DNA from: Calditrichota bacterium
Lineage (GTDB): Bacteria > Calditrichota > Calditrichia > Calditrichales > J004
Assembly (NCBI GenBank): GCA_003696775.1
Contig: RFFS01000143.1
Location: 1 to 44,357 of the forward strand
Direction of reading: 5' to 3'
Length of the DNA: 44,357 bases
Shown: positions 2,884 to 30,570 of the stretch, piece after piece
How positions within the stretch are numbered: the first letter of the stretch is position 1
Layout of the letters: every line of letters begins with the position of its first letter
The notes under the pieces: generated by a model
Told to the model about the DNA's origin: nothing
Databases searched by the model: none
The model's input: only the letters and a program-made list of their open reading frames with translations
Made by a program: the position numbers and the translations under genes

Positions 2884-3872
2884 AGAAATTTTATCTCTTA
2901 TTTTTGCTGTTCGCAAATATATCGTTTGCGGGAAAATATGCCGGCTCCTTTCTGGAATTAGGGGTGGGCGCCAAAGCCCTGGGCATGGGCAGCGCCTTTG
3001 TGGCCGTGAGCGATGACGCCTACGGCTGGTACTGGAACCCGAGCGGTCTGGCCTTCATGGAAAATTTTCAGGCGGCCACCATGTATGCCAGCTTATTCGA
3101 TCAACTGGAAAGCCAGAATTTTGTCAGCGCCGCCATGCCCATTTTCGGCGGGGTGACCATATCCGCTTCCTGGATGCGCTTGAGTGTGGATAATATCCCG
3201 CGCTATCCCGGGTTCAATCCGGATGAAGACAGGGTAAACGGGGACAAATACGACCAGTTGATCGGTGAGCCGACGGGGTATTTTTCCGCCGCCAGTGACG
3301 CCTTTGTGTTCAGTTTTGCCAAGTATAAACGGATTTTGTTTGATTTGGGCTGGCAATATTTTGAACTGCCGGTGGATTTTGGCTTTGGCGGTAACATCAA
3401 AGTCCTGCGGGAAAGCATTGATGATAAAAACGGTGATGGCGTGGGACTGGATTTGGGTATGATGATTCGACTCGGCCTGAATGATGTGTTCAATGATGAA
3501 AAATATGGTAAATTGGTGGTAGGTGTTAACGCGCAGGACCTTTTGGAGACAAAAGTAACCTGGAATACCAATTCCAAACGAACGGATGTGATCAGCCGCA
3601 ACATAAAATACGGTTTTGCCATCATTCAGCCTTTGGATTTTATCGATTCCCAATTTACCTTTGCCTTTGATCTGGATACGCGTTACAATGGGGCCAGTCA
3701 TTTTGGCGGGGAATTTTTATATGATTCCATGATTGCTCTCAGGGCCGGTCTCAATCAGCAGAACTTCACCACGGGCCTCGGCCTCTATTTATGGAAATTA
3801 CGGCTCGATCTGGCCTATCAAAGCCATGATTTGGGCAATACATACAGAGTTTCGTTACTGTTTCATTTATGA
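2880..3872 (+). CDS. PorV/PorQ-family (UPF0164) outer-membrane protein
   Basis: The protein has 330 residues. A cleavable signal peptide of about 17 residues ends in F-A-G. The mature N-terminus carries the family signature: G-A-K-A-L-G-M-G-S-A-F-V-A, then a D-D-A-Y-G-W-Y-W-N-P-S-G block. The remainder alternates amphipathic strands like a beta-barrel and ends in an aromatic-rich strand. In T9SS, PorV is the shuttle that takes cargo from the translocon to the PorU sortase. The ATG overlaps the porU stop by 4 bases (ATGA), indicating translational coupling. A second, more canonical PorV-like gene lies at 23472, so this copy may be a dedicated PorU partner or a PorQ-like paralogue. Confidence 0.8.
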   Translation: MKKFYLLFLLFANISFAGKYAGSFLELGVGAKALGMGSAFVAVSDDAYGWYWNPSGLAFMENFQAATMYASLFDQLESQNFVSAAMPIFGGVTISASWMRLSVDNIPRYPGFNPDEDRVNGDKYDQLIGEPTGYFSAASDAFVFSFAKYKRILFDLGWQYFELPVDFGFGGNIKVLRESIDDKNGDGVGLDLGMMIRLGLNDVFNDEKYGKLVVGVNAQDLLETKVTWNTNSKRTDVISRNIKYGFAIIQPLDFIDSQFTFAFDLDTRYNGASHFGGEFLYDSMIALRAGLNQQNFTTGLGLYLWKLRLDLAYQSHDLGNTYRVSLLFHL

Positions 3873-23235: not shown

Positions 23236-23271
23236 AAAGCGTTGTACTTGACTTATATGAGTCACCGCTTT
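23236..23271. promoter_or_regulatory. Inverted repeat overlapping the porV promoter, candidate operator
   Basis: An inner palindrome TGACT (23249-23253) / AGTCA (23260-23264) has a 6-base centre and is nested within AAAGCG (23236-23241) / CGCTTT (23266-23271). It covers the -35 and spacer of the predicted promoter. It could be an operator, or a weak accA terminator hairpin followed by a T-rich stretch. Confidence 0.4.
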
Positions 23272-23276
23272 ATATT
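23248..23276 (+). promoter_or_regulatory. Predicted promoter for porV leader
   Basis: TTGACT (23248-23253), an exact 17-base spacer, then TATATT (23271-23276). This is the closest match to sigma-70 consensus in the window. The expected transcription start near 23283 would give a ~190-base 5' leader before the porV ATG. Confidence 0.7.
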
Positions 23277-23303
23277 TCAATTTCAAATTTTTTTGGGAGA
23301 AAA

Positions 23304-23453
23304 GCGTATAAGCTGTTTGTTAAAGGAACTATAATCTAATTTCTGAATTGAGATAAATCAGGAAAGTACTACCTTTAACAGGCAGCTTATTTACGGTACC
23401 GTTTAACCGGCTAAGTGGAAAAGGTAGATACTTTCCATTTAACCGGTTTTTTT
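23304..23453 (+). promoter_or_regulatory. Structured 5' leader with terminator/antiterminator, candidate riboswitch or attenuator
   Basis: Three competing pairings are visible. (a) A long upstream stem: ATAAGCTG (23308-23315) with CAGCTTAT (23383-23390), and GTTAAAGG (23319-23326) with CCTTTAAC (23372-23379), separated by a 3x3 internal loop. (b) An antiterminator-like stem: GGAAAGTACTACCTTT (23361-23376) with AAAGGTAGATACTTTCC (23420-23436), 16 pairs with one bulged A. (c) The terminator at 23405-23448. Pairing (b) shares bases with both (a) and (c), so the folds exclude each other. The large loop of (a) (23327-23371) also holds a small CTGA/TCAG hairpin. I recognise no known riboswitch class, and no convincing leader peptide lies downstream of the predicted start. 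Confidence 0.7.
23405..23453 (+). terminator. Intrinsic terminator inside the porV leader
   Basis: A 17-position stem (AACCGGCTAAGTGGAAA at 23405-23421 with TTTCCATTTAACCGGTT at 23432-23448; one C-A mismatch, one G-U) has a 10-base loop and a T tract to 23453. It ends just 4 bases before the AAGGAGG ribosome binding site of porV, as expected for premature termination control rather than an operon end. Confidence 0.8.
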
Positions 23454-23471
23454 ATTTAAGGAGGAATTATC

Positions 23472-24563
23472 ATGTTAAAACGCATTGCAGCGCTGCTGAT
23501 AATGTTAACAGGGACAACATCCCTTTGGGCACAAGGTGCCGGCGAAGCGGCCGTTCCCTTTTTGCTCATCAACCCGGGTGCGCGCGCGGGCGGCATGGGG
23601 GAAGCCGGTGTGGCGCTAGCCACGGACGCAACGGCCATTTACTGGAATCCGGGCGGGCTGGCCTTTCAATACAATGATCCCGAAACCGACCATCCCGGAG
23701 AAGTATCCCTGATGCACGCCAAATGGCTGCCGCAATTCAATTTCAGCGATTTGTTTTATGATTTTCTGGCCGCCCGTTATTACGTGGATGATATTGGAAT
23801 GCTGGGCTTGGGCATCACGTTTTTGAATCTCGGTGAAAACGTGGCCACCAGCACCACCGGTCAGGAGTATGATCGATTTCGTTCCCAGGAGTACGCTTTT
23901 ACCCTCTCTTATGCCACACGGATTCAATCCAATCTGGGTCTGGGAGTGAACCTGAAGTTGATTCGTAGCGAGTTGGCGCCGGAAAGCATCAATGTGGGTA
24001 ATGAAAGCACCAACGGCCGTGCCACCGGGGTTGCCGTGGATGTGGGCGTGCTGTGGAAACCCGATTATGATATGTTTGATAACAAACTGACACTGGGCGC
24101 CAACCTCTCCAACTTTGGCCCGGCTATTTTCTATAACGATGAAGCACAGTCCGATCCCCTGCCCACCAATTTACGCCTCGGGCTGGCTTATGACCTGCTC
24201 GATGATGAATTCAATCAGATGACACTCATCTACGACGCCAATAAGCCGCTGTACCGGCGCGATGGCAGCAAGGCCGAAAATTTTATCACGGCTGCATTTT
24301 ATTCCAGTTGGGTAAAAGGCAAAATTTCCGATCGTTGGAATGCGGTTACCCATTCCGTGGGCCTGGAATATGTTTATGGTAACCTGATTGCCTTGCGTAC
24401 CGGTTATTTTTATGAACATGAACAGGCCGGTGGTCGCCAATTCCTTACTTTTGGCGCCGGTCTGAAATACGATATCTTCCGGTTTGACTTCGGTTATATT
24501 TCCGATGATAAGGACAGCCCCCTTTCCGACACAATCCGTTACTCCCTTGCTGTCCAGTTCTGA
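23472..24563 (+). CDS. porV: PorV, type IX secretion outer-membrane shuttle protein
   Basis: The protein has 363 residues. A signal peptide ends in L-W-A-Q. The mature N-terminus has the canonical PorV pattern F-L-L-I-N-P-G-A-R-A-G-G-M-G-E-A-G-V-A, then A-T-A-I-Y-W-N-P-G-G-L-A-F. Barrel strands with aromatic girdles follow, ending in a typical terminal strand (Y-S-L-A-V-Q-F). PorV is the 14-strand outer-membrane protein that collects cargo from the translocon and delivers it to PorU. AAGGAGG lies 7 bases upstream of the ATG. It is a single-gene unit with its own promoter, structured leader and terminator, unlike the porU-linked paralogue at 2880. Confidence 0.87.
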   Translation: MLKRIAALLIMLTGTTSLWAQGAGEAAVPFLLINPGARAGGMGEAGVALATDATAIYWNPGGLAFQYNDPETDHPGEVSLMHAKWLPQFNFSDLFYDFLAARYYVDDIGMLGLGITFLNLGENVATSTTGQEYDRFRSQEYAFTLSYATRIQSNLGLGVNLKLIRSELAPESINVGNESTNGRATGVAVDVGVLWKPDYDMFDNKLTLGANLSNFGPAIFYNDEAQSDPLPTNLRLGLAYDLLDDEFNQMTLIYDANKPLYRRDGSKAENFITAAFYSSWVKGKISDRWNAVTHSVGLEYVYGNLIALRTGYFYEHEQAGGRQFLTFGAGLKYDIFRFDFGYISDDKDSPLSDTIRYSLAVQF

Positions 24564-24616: not shown

Positions 24617-27454
24617 ATGTCCATGAAACGCATACTCATCTTTTTATTGCTTACCGGGGCATTGTGGGGCCAGACCACCATTCGCATCGCAGTATTGCGC
24701 GTGCAATTCGCTCCGGATGACAACCCTCTGACGACCGGTAACGGGCTGTTTATGATCGATACGGTAACCACCGATCCGCTTGCCATAGACCCGGCGCCAC
24801 ATGACCGTACCTATTTCCGTGACCATATGATCGCCGCCGATAATTTTTTTAATACGGTCTCCCGCGGACATGTGCGCATCGAGGCGGATATCTTCCCCAG
24901 GGGATTAACGGCCGCCTATGATCTGACCGAACCCATGTCTTTTTACAATCCAAATACCAGCAACGAAGCTATTGATGAAGGCGTGGCCCGCTTGTTTCGC
25001 GATGCGGTGCAGCTTGCTGACGACGATCCGGATATCGATTTTAGCGCCTATGATTTGGTGATGGTTTTCCATGCCGGGGTGGGGCGCGATGTGGAACTGG
25101 GTTTTGATGATACACCGCAGGATATCCCTTCGCTGTTCCTTTCGAAAGATTTTTTAAACGATAAGCTCGGCGCGGAATTTGCCGGTATCCCGGTGGATAA
25201 CGGTCAAACCGTCGTCACGCAGGGGGTGGTGTTGCCGGAAACACAAAATCAGGCCGGATACGCCCTGGCCCTTAACGGATTTGTGGTTTCCAATATCGGT
25301 ACTTATCTCGGTATGTATGACATGGTAAGCGTAACCGATGGACGTTCCGGCATAGGCCGCTTTGGCCTGATGGATGTGGGGCTGTTAAATGCCTCCGGCC
25401 TGATACCGGCACCGCCCAACGCGTTTCATCGCCTGTTGACCGGCTGGGAAACGCCCGTCCGTCTCACCCGGGATGCCGAAGTGACCATCGGCCGCTATCT
25501 GCATGGGGATAACGGCACTTCGGTGTTTGAAATCCCCGTAAATGATGATGAATCCTTTTTGATCGAATACCGGGGCGATCCCGAAGTTTATCTTGACAGC
25601 CTGCAATTTGAATTGTCGCGGGACAGAAAAACTTACGCCGGTTATATGGAAGTTTTGCAAACCTATCTAAAGGATCGTATTACAATTTCCGACAGCAGCG
25701 GTGTGTTGTTAAAAGTGGATGATTACGATTGGGGATTGAACGGTGCCGGTTTGTTGATATGGCATATCGATCGTTCCGTGATCCGCGAGCGAAGCGATCC
25801 CTTTATCAATGATGATCCGCTCCACCGGGCCGTGGACCTGGAAGAAGCCGACGGCAGCCAGGATATCGGGCAGGCCTATACCCTGCTGGATGCCGGATTT
25901 CAGTCGGAATTGGGCACGCCCTTGGATTTTTGGTATAAATCCAATCCGGCACCCCTGTACAGCAACCGATTCGCTTCCAACACAACGCCCAATAGCAACA
26001 GCTACCGGGCCCGCACCCCCAGCGGCGTGGTGATCGAAAATATCAGCGAAGCGCGCACGGATGTAATGACATTCCGCTTTAAACGGGAAAACTTTGTGGA
26101 CGGTTTTCCGGTGGAGACGGCATTTAAGGCCCCTGTTTTTACCGCCGCGCCGGTAGAAGGCGTTAGCGGTGATTACCTGTTTGTTTTGGACAGCCTGGGC
26201 AATCTGCGGGTGTTTAACACGCTTGATACGTTGACCATGCGGTTACCCGTGACAGGCCCCGGAAAGATGGCGCTGGCCGATCGCGATGGGAACGGCGCAT
26301 ACGATGTCCTGGCCCTGGCCGCGGGCGATTCGCTTTATCTTTTTAATCTTGCCTATCCCCTGCAAAATAACTGGCGGACGATTATACCCGCCATGGCGGT
26401 GCATGTTACCGCGGATATGGTGACCACCGCGCAGGGCGTTTATGCCACCGTAGGAGACAGCCTGTTGTTTACGGATTGGGAAGGCAACAGCCACTATACC
26501 GGCTTCCCCACCGAAATAATCGGTTTTATTCCAGGATTTACCACGCCGGAAAACAGTGCCGATGCCTTTACCTATAACGCCTTATATACCGATGGCGACG
26601 GTCAAACGTCGGAATTACGCTATTACGCGGAGACGCAGCGCTTTTATACCATCGGCGGCGCTTATATCGATTTTACGGCCGATGCCGCGCCTGTGGGTGG
26701 TTTTGCCGTGGCCGATATGGACGGCAACGGGGTACGGGATATCGTCTATGCCACTGATAACGCGGTTTACGCCTATCAACCCAACGGCAGCATATTAAGC
26801 GGTTTCCCGCTGGAAATACCGGAACGGGACGATCATTTTGCCCATGTGCCCCTGATATACCGGGACGCCACGGGTGTTGCCCATTTAATTGCCGCGACCC
26901 GGCACGGTTTGATTTTGGATTACAGAATGGAAAACGGCCCGCATGCGTGGGGCCGGTGGCTCACCGGCGGCAGACTTTCTGACTCGCCCCGTCTGGTCGC
27001 CTGGAATGATTCGGCACCGTTTATGGTCAGCGCCGTGACGGACAGCGGTCGTGTTTACGCCTGGCCGCTTGATGACGATCCGGCCGTTGTGCTTTGGAAC
27101 GGGCCGCATGCCGACGCCGCAAACAGCGGCATGGCTAAAAACGACAATCCGGCCCATGCGGTTAAAAATACTCTGATGGATGCGCAACGGGTTTACAATT
27201 ATCCCAATCCTGCGGAAAACAACCGGACGCGTATCCGCTATTATTTGCACCATGCCGCCAGCGTTACGATTCGGATATTTGACGGTTCCGGCTATCTTGT
27301 GGATGAATTTCCGGCGCCGGGGCAGGGTGGAATGTTCAATGAAATCCCGTGGGATGTCAGCGACGTGGCTTCAGGTGTTTATACGGGACAGGTGACCGTG
27401 GAAAACGGGTCACAAAAAGAGACGAAACTGATAAAAATTCTGGTGGTGCATTGA
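24617..27454 (+). CDS. Secreted M6-like protein lacking the zinc motif, with FG-GAP repeats and C-terminal sorting domain
   Basis: The protein has 945 residues; ATG 24623 is an equally possible start. A signal peptide ends in L-W-G-Q. Residues about 30-300 resemble M6/immune-inhibitor-A-like peptidases, including the downstream S-G-I-G-R-F-G-L-M-D-V-G block. Where HExxH should stand, the sequence reads S-N-I-G-T (225-229), so the metal ligands and catalytic Glu are absent. FG-GAP/VCBS-like calcium repeats follow (D-R-D-G-N-G near 555, D-M-D-G-N-G near 702), suggesting a beta-propeller. The final ~90 residues form a FlgD-like/T9SS type-A CTD beginning Y-N-Y-P-N-P. It is likely exported cargo with a binding rather than proteolytic role (inference). 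The stop overlaps the next ATG by one base. Confidence 0.75.
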   Translation: MSMKRILIFLLLTGALWGQTTIRIAVLRVQFAPDDNPLTTGNGLFMIDTVTTDPLAIDPAPHDRTYFRDHMIAADNFFNTVSRGHVRIEADIFPRGLTAAYDLTEPMSFYNPNTSNEAIDEGVARLFRDAVQLADDDPDIDFSAYDLVMVFHAGVGRDVELGFDDTPQDIPSLFLSKDFLNDKLGAEFAGIPVDNGQTVVTQGVVLPETQNQAGYALALNGFVVSNIGTYLGMYDMVSVTDGRSGIGRFGLMDVGLLNASGLIPAPPNAFHRLLTGWETPVRLTRDAEVTIGRYLHGDNGTSVFEIPVNDDESFLIEYRGDPEVYLDSLQFELSRDRKTYAGYMEVLQTYLKDRITISDSSGVLLKVDDYDWGLNGAGLLIWHIDRSVIRERSDPFINDDPLHRAVDLEEADGSQDIGQAYTLLDAGFQSELGTPLDFWYKSNPAPLYSNRFASNTTPNSNSYRARTPSGVVIENISEARTDVMTFRFKRENFVDGFPVETAFKAPVFTAAPVEGVSGDYLFVLDSLGNLRVFNTLDTLTMRLPVTGPGKMALADRDGNGAYDVLALAAGDSLYLFNLAYPLQNNWRTIIPAMAVHVTADMVTTAQGVYATVGDSLLFTDWEGNSHYTGFPTEIIGFIPGFTTPENSADAFTYNALYTDGDGQTSELRYYAETQRFYTIGGAYIDFTADAAPVGGFAVADMDGNGVRDIVYATDNAVYAYQPNGSILSGFPLEIPERDDHFAHVPLIYRDATGVAHLIAATRHGLILDYRMENGPHAWGRWLTGGRLSDSPRLVAWNDSAPFMVSAVTDSGRVYAWPLDDDPAVVLWNGPHADAANSGMAKNDNPAHAVKNTLMDAQRVYNYPNPAENNRTRIRYYLHHAASVTIRIFDGSGYLVDEFPAPGQGGMFNEIPWDVSDVASGVYTGQVTVENGSQKETKLIKILVVH

Positions 27455-30400
27455 TGAAACGCTTGTTGCCTTGGCTTGCCATACTGCTGCCTTTCACCCT
27501 TTGGGCCCAGTTGTTCGACCAGTACAATCATCCCGAACTGGTGTGGCGTTCGTTCGACACGGAACATTTTACCGTTCATTACCACCAGGGAACGGAACTG
27601 ACCGCATTCCGGGCGGCTAAAATCATCGAGGAAATCTATCCCGCCGTCACTGCCACTTATGATTATCAACCCGCGGATCGTCTGCATCTTATCCTGAAAG
27701 ATACCGATGATTATTCCAACGGCGGCGCCTTTTTTTTTAACAATAAAATCGAGATTTGGGCCAATAACCTTGACTATGTCATGCGCGGCACCAAAAACTG
27801 GTTGCGTGATGTGCTGACCCATGAATTCACGCATATGGTCAGCATACAAAAAACCATTAAAAGCAGTCTGACCTTTCCGTACGGATTTGTACAATGGTTT
27901 GCCTATGAAAAAGAACGTCGCCGGGATGTGGTGCGCGGTTTCCCCAATTTGTTGGTATCCTATCCTGTCAGTTCAGTCAATATGCCGGTATGGTTTGCCG
28001 AGGGAACGGCACAGTATCAGAACAACCACGCCCGCTATGATTATCGCGATCCGCACCGGGAAATGATTTTACGCGACAGGGTGCTGCATAAACGGTTGTT
28101 GTCGCTCAACGCCATGTCCGTGTTTGGCAAAAACAGCCACGGAAACGAGTCCAGTTACAATCAGGGGTTTTCTCTGGTTAAATATATCGCTAGGCGCTTC
28201 GGTGAAAAAGTGTTGTCGAAAATTACGGAACGAAACAGCCATTGGAGCAGCTATACTTTTGACAGCGCTGTGGAAGAAGCCACCGGACACAGTTTGCAGT
28301 CCTTGTATAACGATTGGCGCGATAGTCTGACAGTGCGCTATACAGACATGACAGCCACCATCCGGCGGCATTTAGTCGCCGGTAAAAAGATAGAAAACGA
28401 CGGATTTGCCAATTTGTATCCCGTTTTTTCACCGGACGGCAGGCGTGTGGCCTGGGTCAGCAATAAAGGGCGGGACTATTTCGGGCAAACGCGCATCGTG
28501 ATATGGGACAGTGTTCGGGATAAAAAAGAAGAACTCCCCGTGGCGGGCGTTAACTCGTCGTTGTCATGGTCGCCGGACGGTCGCTATCTGGTTTATACCC
28601 GTCAGGCACGAAATCGTTATATGTCCGGTTTCAACGATTTGTATGTTTGGGACATGGACAACCGGGAAGAGCATCGGCTCAGCTACGGTTTACGCGGTCG
28701 TAATCCCTCCTTCAGTCCCGATGGCCGGGCCATTGCTTTTGTCAGCGCGACGGACGGCCTGCATGCCTTAAATGTGCTGAGATTGTCCGCCAAGGGCCCG
28801 CTTGACGGCACGTGGCTGGAAGACGCCTTCGATATGACCACCGGCGAACTGTTACACCACAAGGCGGATACACTTACCCAGCGACCGGTAAAAGTATTGG
28901 GTGAAAAACTGGAACAACTGTTGTTTTTCACCGATGCCCGGCAAATTTATCATCCGCGCTGGCGGCCCGACGCCAGGCAATTGATTTTTGGGACATCCAC
29001 CGATTTCGGGCGCCATATCGGTGTGTATGATTTTGACACGGGGCAATTCCGGGTTGTGCGCCGCGCCCGGGAAGAACTCCGCTATCCGGTATATTCGCCG
29101 GACGGCGCCTGGCTCTATTTTGCTTCCAGCGCCACGGGCATTTATAATATTTACAGAGCGCCCGCGGCAGGGGGCACGCCACAGTTACTTACCAATGTGA
29201 CCGGCGGCGCGTTTATGCCAACGGTGAATCGGGACGGCCGACTGGTTTACGCTTTGTATGATAGCGTGGGCTATAAACTGGCCGTGCTGGACGATCCCCG
29301 GCCCATTGATCCGACCAACGCGGTTTATGATACCCGCTATCCGGCATCGGTTCCGGTGAAGGATTTTGATGACATACAAACACCGACGTATAAAACCCGT
29401 CCCTATCAAACCACATTTAGCCGTACTCAGATTTTACCCCGCCTGTTCATCGATTACGGTACCGTTAAACCCGGTTTTTATATCACCAAATCCGATGTGC
29501 TGGATCAGTTGTATCTGGTGGCCGGGGCGGCTGTAAACAGCGATTTGGAATATGATCTGTATGCCTATGCCTCCTACAATAAGCTGTTGCCCAGCTTATG
29601 GCTGGAATTTTTTAACTCATCGGCAAATATCAGGGATACGCTGGAACTGGACAGGGGCTATGTGGTGAAGGGCGTGCGCAAGGTGGGCTTCAATCTGGTG
29701 CAATTCAGTGCGGGCGCCACTTTCATCCCGTGGGAAAAAACGCATTTAACCATCAGTTATACCGGCAGCCGTTATTCCGCGCAACTGGACCCGTTGACCC
29801 TGAAAACACCAACCGACGGTGAGTTGTATGTGCCCACCATCCGGTATGATTATCTGCGCGGTCATGCCGTCCACCTCAAGTTGATTATGGACAGGTTGGG
29901 TCAAAACCGTTTTGCAGCGGTGAACCCCTCTTCCGGGTATTATCTCTACGCGCGGTATGGTTTTGAAATCAACAATTTCCTTGAAGGCTTTGCCACCGAC
30001 CGCCAATTGGGTCTGGAAGAGTTTAAGCGTTATATCTTCAACTCGCTGGATGTGAATGCCGAGGTCTATTTTGAAAATCCCCTGTGGGCACAACATGCTG
30101 TGGGACTCAGTGTCAAAACCGGATTCATCGATCGTCCGGTGGCCGGATTTTTTAATTATTTTGCCGGTGGTCTGATCGGTTTGCGCGGTTATCCCTTTTA
30201 CAGCATGGAAGGACGTCATAAGCTTATTGGTACATTGACGTATCGCTTTCCCATTAGCCGCGGTCTGGACTGGCGATTGGGGCATCTGCGCTTTGATAAG
30301 TTGTTCGCGGGATTTTTTGCCGAGGCGGGTAACGCGTTCGATGAAAACCGTATCGATTTCAGTGCGTTTAAAAAAGACGTGGGGCTGGAGTTGAGACTGG

Positions 30401-30570
30401 ATACTTTTTCATATAATATGTTTCCCACCCGGGTTTTTGTACAGGCCGCTTATCCGCTGGATGTGGCGCGCAACGGCACGGTCAGCTATCCCCGTGAATG
30501 GCGCTTTTACGGCGGCATCCTGTTCGATTTTGATTTACGGGAGCGTCTGACCCGGGGCATTCCAAGGTAG
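27454..30570 (+). CDS. Metallopeptidase / TolB-like beta-propeller / outer-membrane barrel fusion
   Basis: The protein has 1038 residues from ATG 27454, which starts a clean signal peptide (L-W-A-Q); the frame is open upstream to 27349 but lies inside the previous gene. Residues 30-320 form an MA-clan gluzincin domain with HEFTH at 123-127 and a third-ligand candidate Glu183 in W-F-A-E-G-T-A. Residues about 325-620 hold WD40-like/PD40 repeats (recurrent F-S-P-D-G-R, W-S-P-D-G-R, Y-S-P-D-G-A). From about 690 onward the strands resemble an Omp85/surface-antigen barrel, including G-L-R-G-Y near 908 and a final strand pattern. Expected topology is barrel in the outer membrane with peptidase and propeller in periplasm or outside. 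Substrate unknown. Confidence 0.8.
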   Translation: MKRLLPWLAILLPFTLWAQLFDQYNHPELVWRSFDTEHFTVHYHQGTELTAFRAAKIIEEIYPAVTATYDYQPADRLHLILKDTDDYSNGGAFFFNNKIEIWANNLDYVMRGTKNWLRDVLTHEFTHMVSIQKTIKSSLTFPYGFVQWFAYEKERRRDVVRGFPNLLVSYPVSSVNMPVWFAEGTAQYQNNHARYDYRDPHREMILRDRVLHKRLLSLNAMSVFGKNSHGNESSYNQGFSLVKYIARRFGEKVLSKITERNSHWSSYTFDSAVEEATGHSLQSLYNDWRDSLTVRYTDMTATIRRHLVAGKKIENDGFANLYPVFSPDGRRVAWVSNKGRDYFGQTRIVIWDSVRDKKEELPVAGVNSSLSWSPDGRYLVYTRQARNRYMSGFNDLYVWDMDNREEHRLSYGLRGRNPSFSPDGRAIAFVSATDGLHALNVLRLSAKGPLDGTWLEDAFDMTTGELLHHKADTLTQRPVKVLGEKLEQLLFFTDARQIYHPRWRPDARQLIFGTSTDFGRHIGVYDFDTGQFRVVRRAREELRYPVYSPDGAWLYFASSATGIYNIYRAPAAGGTPQLLTNVTGGAFMPTVNRDGRLVYALYDSVGYKLAVLDDPRPIDPTNAVYDTRYPASVPVKDFDDIQTPTYKTRPYQTTFSRTQILPRLFIDYGTVKPGFYITKSDVLDQLYLVAGAAVNSDLEYDLYAYASYNKLLPSLWLEFFNSSANIRDTLELDRGYVVKGVRKVGFNLVQFSAGATFIPWEKTHLTISYTGSRYSAQLDPLTLKTPTDGELYVPTIRYDYLRGHAVHLKLIMDRLGQNRFAAVNPSSGYYLYARYGFEINNFLEGFATDRQLGLEEFKRYIFNSLDVNAEVYFENPLWAQHAVGLSVKTGFIDRPVAGFFNYFAGGLIGLRGYPFYSMEGRHKLIGTLTYRFPISRGLDWRLGHLRFDKLFAGFFAEAGNAFDENRIDFSAFKKDVGLELRLDTFSYNMFPTRVFVQAAYPLDVARNGTVSYPREWRFYGGILFDFDLRERLTRGIPR

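Follow-up and report, generated by a model that had tools for sequence, protein, structure and literature searches.

The window, which is the whole analysed stretch of 44,357 nucleotides from a Calditrichota bacterium (contig RFFS01000143.1), contains a gene for a PorV/PorQ-family outer-membrane protein of the type IX secretion system (T9SS), preceded by a structured leader (23283-23471). The gene product matched Pfam PF19572 (E 2.9e-30) and NCBIfam NF033709 (E 1.1e-91, above cut-off), and its NCBIfam NF033710 score of 241 bits was slightly below the cut-off of 250. The gene following porV (24617-27454) encodes a T9SS-dependent, M6-like (inactivated) metalloprotease with a Por_Secre_tail sorting domain, which is likely to be a T9SS cargo. 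The next open reading frame (27349-30570) encodes a Peptidase MA / TolB-like propeller protein; its listed start overlaps the preceding gene and the true start is probably an internal ATG. A second PorV-like stretch is located at 2925-3065 and shows 53% identity to PorV residues 22-68. The features of the porV locus (23248-24563) are as follows.

23248..23276, + strand: sigma70-like promoter TTGACT-17-TATATT, read from the sequence
23295..23309, + strand: conserved 5' element GGGAG..GCGUAU (alignments A1, A3 and A4)
23308..23326, + strand: 5' strand of stem P1, AUAAGCUGUUUGUUAAAGG, with core GUUUGUUAAAGG; conserved and covarying
23327..23371, + strand: P1 loop, A+U-rich, variable between species in sequence and length
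23361..23376, + strand: 5' strand of the antiterminator (AT), GGAAAGUACUACCUUU; overlaps the P1 3' strand; covarying
23372..23390, + strand: P1 3' strand, CCUUUAACAGGCAGCUUAU; contested by P1 and AT
23405..23453, + strand: intrinsic terminator, stem 23405-23421/23432-23448, T run 23447-23453; covarying
23420..23436, + strand: AT 3' strand, AAAGGUAGAUACUUUCC, with bulge at 23428; within the terminator loop and 3' shoulder
23458..23464, + strand: porV ribosome binding site AAGGAGG, from the sequence
23472..24563, + strand: porV, PorV/PorQ-family T9SS outer-membrane protein of 363 aa, the regulated gene

Judged from the promoter alone, transcription is inferred to start near 23283, and a similar TTGAC(T)/TATATT pair is found at the same position in the genus relatives. 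The 5' element follows the family consensus GGAG-N-GCNUAU in alignments A1, A3 and A4, with a near-invariant UAU that lies outside any perfect pairing in several members. P1 consists of 19 contiguous pairs including two U-G wobbles (-23.3 kcal/mol), AT of 16 bp with one bulged base (-18.2 kcal/mol), and the terminator of 16 pairs out of 17 (-18.7 kcal/mol) with a 7-base T run, followed by four bases and the ribosome binding site. By pairing the P1 3' strand with the terminator loop, AT is incompatible with P1 as well as with the terminator; the AAAGG within its 3' strand repeats part of the P1 5' strand. The element is present as a single copy in the source genome. An earlier note on this DNA, based on the letters alone, had placed the upstream stem correctly but described it as 16 bp with a 3x3 internal loop, which is not what was found. 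Its account of the second stem with one bulge, of a terminator ending four bases before the ribosome binding site and of a second pairing that shares strands with both others was borne out, as was the assignment of the regulated gene to a T9SS outer-membrane shuttle. The start near 23283 is also the one that the note assumed. The note had considered such a structure very unlikely by chance; the leader fold of -53.2 kcal/mol was more stable than that of 200 dinucleotide shuffles (-34.7 +/- 4.0; z -4.6, 0/200).

Distribution and linked genes

A phylum-wide search detected porV in 37 of 40 Calditrichota genomes, and the element was read in the leader of porV in all 37. These leaders share the order GGAG..GCNUAU..GUUUGUUAAAGG, variable loop, CCUUUARCAAAC and terminator. 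Covariance model R2 matched exactly these 37 genomes and gave no match in the three Calditrichota genomes without a detected porV; among good Calditrichota genomes, RNA and porV co-occurred in 23/23. R2 marked 51 of 80 named porV loci, some of them from KSB1 and other records outside Calditrichota, and the match always lay upstream of porV. In the KSB1-type phylum (that of G043), covariance-model matches were obtained in 53/82 genomes, and the broader model R3 matched at least 71 of 391 genomes of the Ignavibacteria-type class under strict filters. The strict filters employed in the largest searches make these counts lower bounds. Names of phyla and classes are inferred from record titles, model calibration was short and the sequences derive from MAGs. 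All 30 Ignavibacteria-type loci examined lie directly upstream of a PorU-like open reading frame, and 24 of these were not used in model building. In these genomes porV comes after porU, and the RNA precedes porU rather than porV.

A whole-genome search of 20 non-Calditrichota genomes yielded further loci of the same RNA, and the genes behind it mostly belong to type IX secretion. The porU gene behind the RNA at locus L187 encodes an NCBIfam PorU domain and Pfam Propeptide_C25; porU also follows at L238, L237 is similar by reading, and a C25 peptidase follows at L191 and L222. At L218-L220 the RNA is succeeded by a choice-of-anchor-X lipoprotein, a PorZ-like CTD protein and a PorV/Q-family protein (the latter two labelled by reading), a gene set that is possibly an unnamed T9SS accessory operon. 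Lipoproteins of the choice-of-anchor-X type were also seen behind the RNA at L236 and L194. At L221 (265-429, G065) a nucleotide-sugar dehydrogenase and Wza/Wzz-like export genes follow the RNA, a hint that genes for surface sugars are under this control as well. The scope is wider than the earlier note envisaged, as the same RNA is found ahead of porU and other T9SS-linked genes and in other phyla.

Several matches were set aside. Matches away from porV that the first model gave in Calditrichota (L091, L093 and L094) proved to be plain hairpins or terminators and were rejected, and matches on the opposite strand arise from the self-complementarity of P1. A mobile palindrome or repeat was ruled out by the presence of a single RNA copy per genome. 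A short, weak match of 34 bits (L192, G042:C87:64989-65056), consisting of GGGAGTTGCCTATTC.. and a terminator after a TPR-like open reading frame, may be a remnant or chance.

Covariation and lineage variants

Covariation was assessed in alignments A3 (31 sequences), A1 (22 sequences) and A4, which includes the porU-type members. P1 and the terminator were paired in 89% of cells in A3 versus 77% after shuffling, with 108 double-change cells versus 45 +/- 5. This signal was lost when partners were slid by one column, and A4 agreed with A3. Double changes in P1 that separate clades include U-A to C-G (GUUUG/CAAAC to GUUCG/CGAAC), A-U to G-C and G-C to A-U. The 3' arms of L140 and L160 are atypical, which concerns several lineages. 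AT pairing shifts its position between lineages and its alignment is approximate; in A1, 85% of AT cells were paired versus 76% after shuffling, with 28 double-change cells versus 11 +/- 3 and variant pairs such as CUACC/GGUAG, CUGCC/GGCAG and UUACC/GGUAA.

A phylogeny-preserving null was employed in which the tree and the changes per column were retained and the changes were moved among branches. At the level of whole helices, P1 (z 4.9) and the terminator (z 6.0) stood out in A4 and AT (z 3.9, 0/200) in A1, while slid controls were null. A per-pair, R-scape-like test found 3/14 P1 pairs and 4/9 terminator pairs significant. No single AT pair was significant against the phylogenetic null, only the whole helix, and as the per-pair test is underpowered for AT, the helix-level test was used together with an alignment-free strand-swap test. 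The latter compares the strands of each species with strands exchanged between species. Own strands scored better for AT (-813 versus -594 +/- 20), P1 (-1455 versus -956 +/- 32) and the terminator (-983 versus -563 +/- 29), each with 0/5000 swaps reaching the own value. The own pair was also better for all three stems in each of three groups, the exception to 0/5000 being basal P1 alone in group A (2/5000). Covariation of all three stems in relatives was the check named by the earlier note; it was passed and supports the reading of the stems as anti-antiterminator, antiterminator and terminator, even though termination and readthrough in cells remain unproven.

The sequences that form AT differ between lineages. 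The portion of the P1 3' strand that enters AT is apical in groups f1-f3 (GUCUACCUUU / AAAGGUAGAC) and basal in f4-f6 and the KSB1-type members (CACCC / GGGUG; GGCUUACC / GGUAAGUC). The terminator loop of the porU type (L243, L244) contains GUUAAAGGU, which duplicates the P1 5' strand exactly. Despite these differences the common rule is that the terminator loop provides a second partner for the P1 3' strand, and the three-way switch logic is kept even where lineages pair by different alternative sequences. Three members of one lineage (L130, L131 and L137) display an extra competing pairing between GGUCUGGU (or GGUUUGGU) in the P1 loop and ACCAGACC (or ACCAAACC) at the terminator 5' arm, which is a different antiterminator design.

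When the growing transcript of the window was folded with P1 free, P1 (0.96) and the terminator (0.89) formed; with 23300-23326 blocked, AT reached 0.99 and the terminator 0. The default of P1 plus terminator was also obtained for 54 homologues (means 0.77 and 0.75). As the terminator loop emerges, AT formed in 52/54 homologues with the 5' strand blocked and in 17/54 without the block. At full-length equilibrium, blocking the P1 5' strand reduced the terminator by at least 30% in only 20/54 homologues; the nearest relatives tested (L003, L005, L032 and L033) were not among them. For most members, antitermination would therefore have to be kinetic and depend on co-transcriptional order.

Probable transcription attenuation and competing explanations

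The conserved anatomy, the covariation of P1, AT and terminator, the gene linkage and the predicted folding lead us to interpret the porV leader, with a probability of roughly 0.8, as a cis-acting transcription attenuator and a member of a so far undescribed family of RNAs controlling genes for type IX secretion. Two defining features of such an attenuator are present: an intrinsic terminator located between promoter and coding sequence, and a pairing that is incompatible with this terminator and is itself kept from forming by a hairpin further upstream, with signs of selection on all of them. In the proposed mechanism, P1 would fold as anti-antiterminator once transcribed, the terminator could then form and RNA polymerase would stop near 23453, so that OFF is the predicted default. 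Capture or melting of the conserved P1 5' strand (GGAG..GCNUAU..GUUYGUUAAAGG) would free the P1 3' strand, which could pair with the copy of the 5' strand in the emerging terminator loop. Formation of AT would make the terminator fail and porV (porU-porV in other phyla) would be transcribed. It is inferred, without transcript data, that cells terminate and antiterminate at this leader, in which direction the switch responds, and that its input acts in trans, be it a protein or a small molecule. Conservation is highest in GCNUAU and the P1 5' strand, which are retained even when pairing is incomplete, so that a protein or ligand would probably make contact there, an inference from sequence conservation without binding data. 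No aptamer-like conserved loop was seen; conservation resides in the P1 strands and GGAG..GCNUAU, and a small-molecule riboswitch is thus not obvious.

The same parts can be arranged differently. AT might represent a kissing or pseudoknot interaction in which the terminator loop touches P1 and thereby stabilises termination, since most of its 3' strand lies inside the terminator loop in several members and a short loop pairing can leave the stem intact. In many members, however, AT comprises 10-16 bp and exceeds a loop of ~10-15 nt unless the stem opens, the CCUUU strand is common to AT and P1, and in the window AT takes in the 3' shoulder of the terminator; we regard such a contact as unlikely. 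A trans-acting small RNA of ~170 nt whose gene merely happens to precede porV, the latter being expressed by readthrough, would account for the promoter, the strong terminator, termination as the predicted default and a small, conserved, structured element. The genes behind the element nevertheless differ between genomes (porV, porU, C25 peptidase, lipoprotein-PorZ-like operon, nucleotide-sugar dehydrogenase) and it is absent where no porV was found, which is the distribution of a cis element. Covariation of AT, a pairing of no use to a small RNA, also makes this explanation distinctly improbable.

Ribosome-mediated attenuation, in which a short leader reading frame after GGAG covers the P1 5' strand when translated or stalled, finds some basis in the GGAG motif ahead of GCNUAU and in an NUG start with in-frame stop in some members (e.g. 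L130, L137 and L052). Many others carry AAG, GAG, UAG or ACG in place of the start codon, middle codon positions are free to vary and the reading frame differs from family to family, so that the conserved short reading frame over the switch that defines a leader-peptide attenuator is not present and we give this possibility very little weight. The P1 arms (GTTTGTTAAAGG / CCTTTAACAAAC) are conserved even where pairing would permit change, as might be expected of inverted DNA operators for a transcription factor next to an unrelated terminator. Their variation follows RNA rules, though: at one core pair the 3' arm has A or G opposite U (13 U-A and 7 U-G of 22), U-A/C-G and A-U/G-C double changes divide clades, the arm spacing is free (about 35 to over 100 nt) and the three stems covary. 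Operators of this kind appear scarcely tenable, and transcription attenuation remains the preferred reading.

Known systems and significance

No known riboswitch class had been recognised in the earlier note, and an Rfam search (release 15) at gathering score likewise gave no match in the window or in 14 homologous loci; relaxed thresholds produced only sub-threshold chance matches. The literature searched for riboswitches, attenuators or RNA motifs in connection with T9SS held no description of this RNA. In the genome paper of Caldithrix abyssi, an Rfam scan yielded B12, TPP and Moco riboswitches, and PorV is not mentioned in the passages of it that were searched. The closest logic is that of the Bacillus subtilis pyr leaders, in which anti-antiterminator, antiterminator and terminator are mutually exclusive and PyrR stabilises the anti-antiterminator (PMC4347634). 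The three mutually exclusive structures are shared with the porV leader, but there is no sequence or Rfam relation, other phyla and other genes are involved, and in the porV leader the terminator loop repeats the P1 5' strand. A PyrR-type attenuator was rejected on the basis of the T9SS-linked genes and the lack of an Rfam PyrR match, without binding data. Transcription-terminating riboswitches resemble the element in their 5' leader position, in an alternative pairing that sets a terminator just before the ribosome binding site and in conservation over phyla, whereas the porV leader has no conserved aptamer-like loop core or known ligand. As in RATs of the BglG/LicT type, an RNA element overlaps the terminator and a protein could decide the outcome. 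In the RAT a protein stabilises a short antiterminator hairpin, while the porV-leader antiterminator is long-range and competes with a third, upstream hairpin. T9SS genes of Porphyromonas gingivalis, including porV, are under promoter control by PorXY-SigP (PMC4800418). This system likewise controls T9SS component genes including porV, but through an ECF sigma factor at promoters and without an RNA leader.

No earlier RNA-level control of type IX secretion was found in Rfam or the literature searched, and the element looks like a new, widespread RNA control for T9SS in at least three bacterial groups. A more far-reaching and only tentative idea is that it constitutes a new metabolite- or protein-sensing RNA class, with a terminator that bears a decoy copy of the sensor strand, which sets the expression of T9SS outer-membrane machinery (porU, porV, PorZ-like proteins, C25 peptidases and surface-sugar dehydrogenase) across several phyla and perhaps reads the state of the secretion/sugar-attachment pathway. 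The P1 5' strand provides a concrete bait for finding the input signal, and the RNA can be used to flag T9SS gene sets in phyla without cultured members. Retention of such an RNA at porV, or its relocation ahead of porU, across at least three phyla would show that an old, shared signal sets the dose of the shuttle/sortase pair in the outer membrane.
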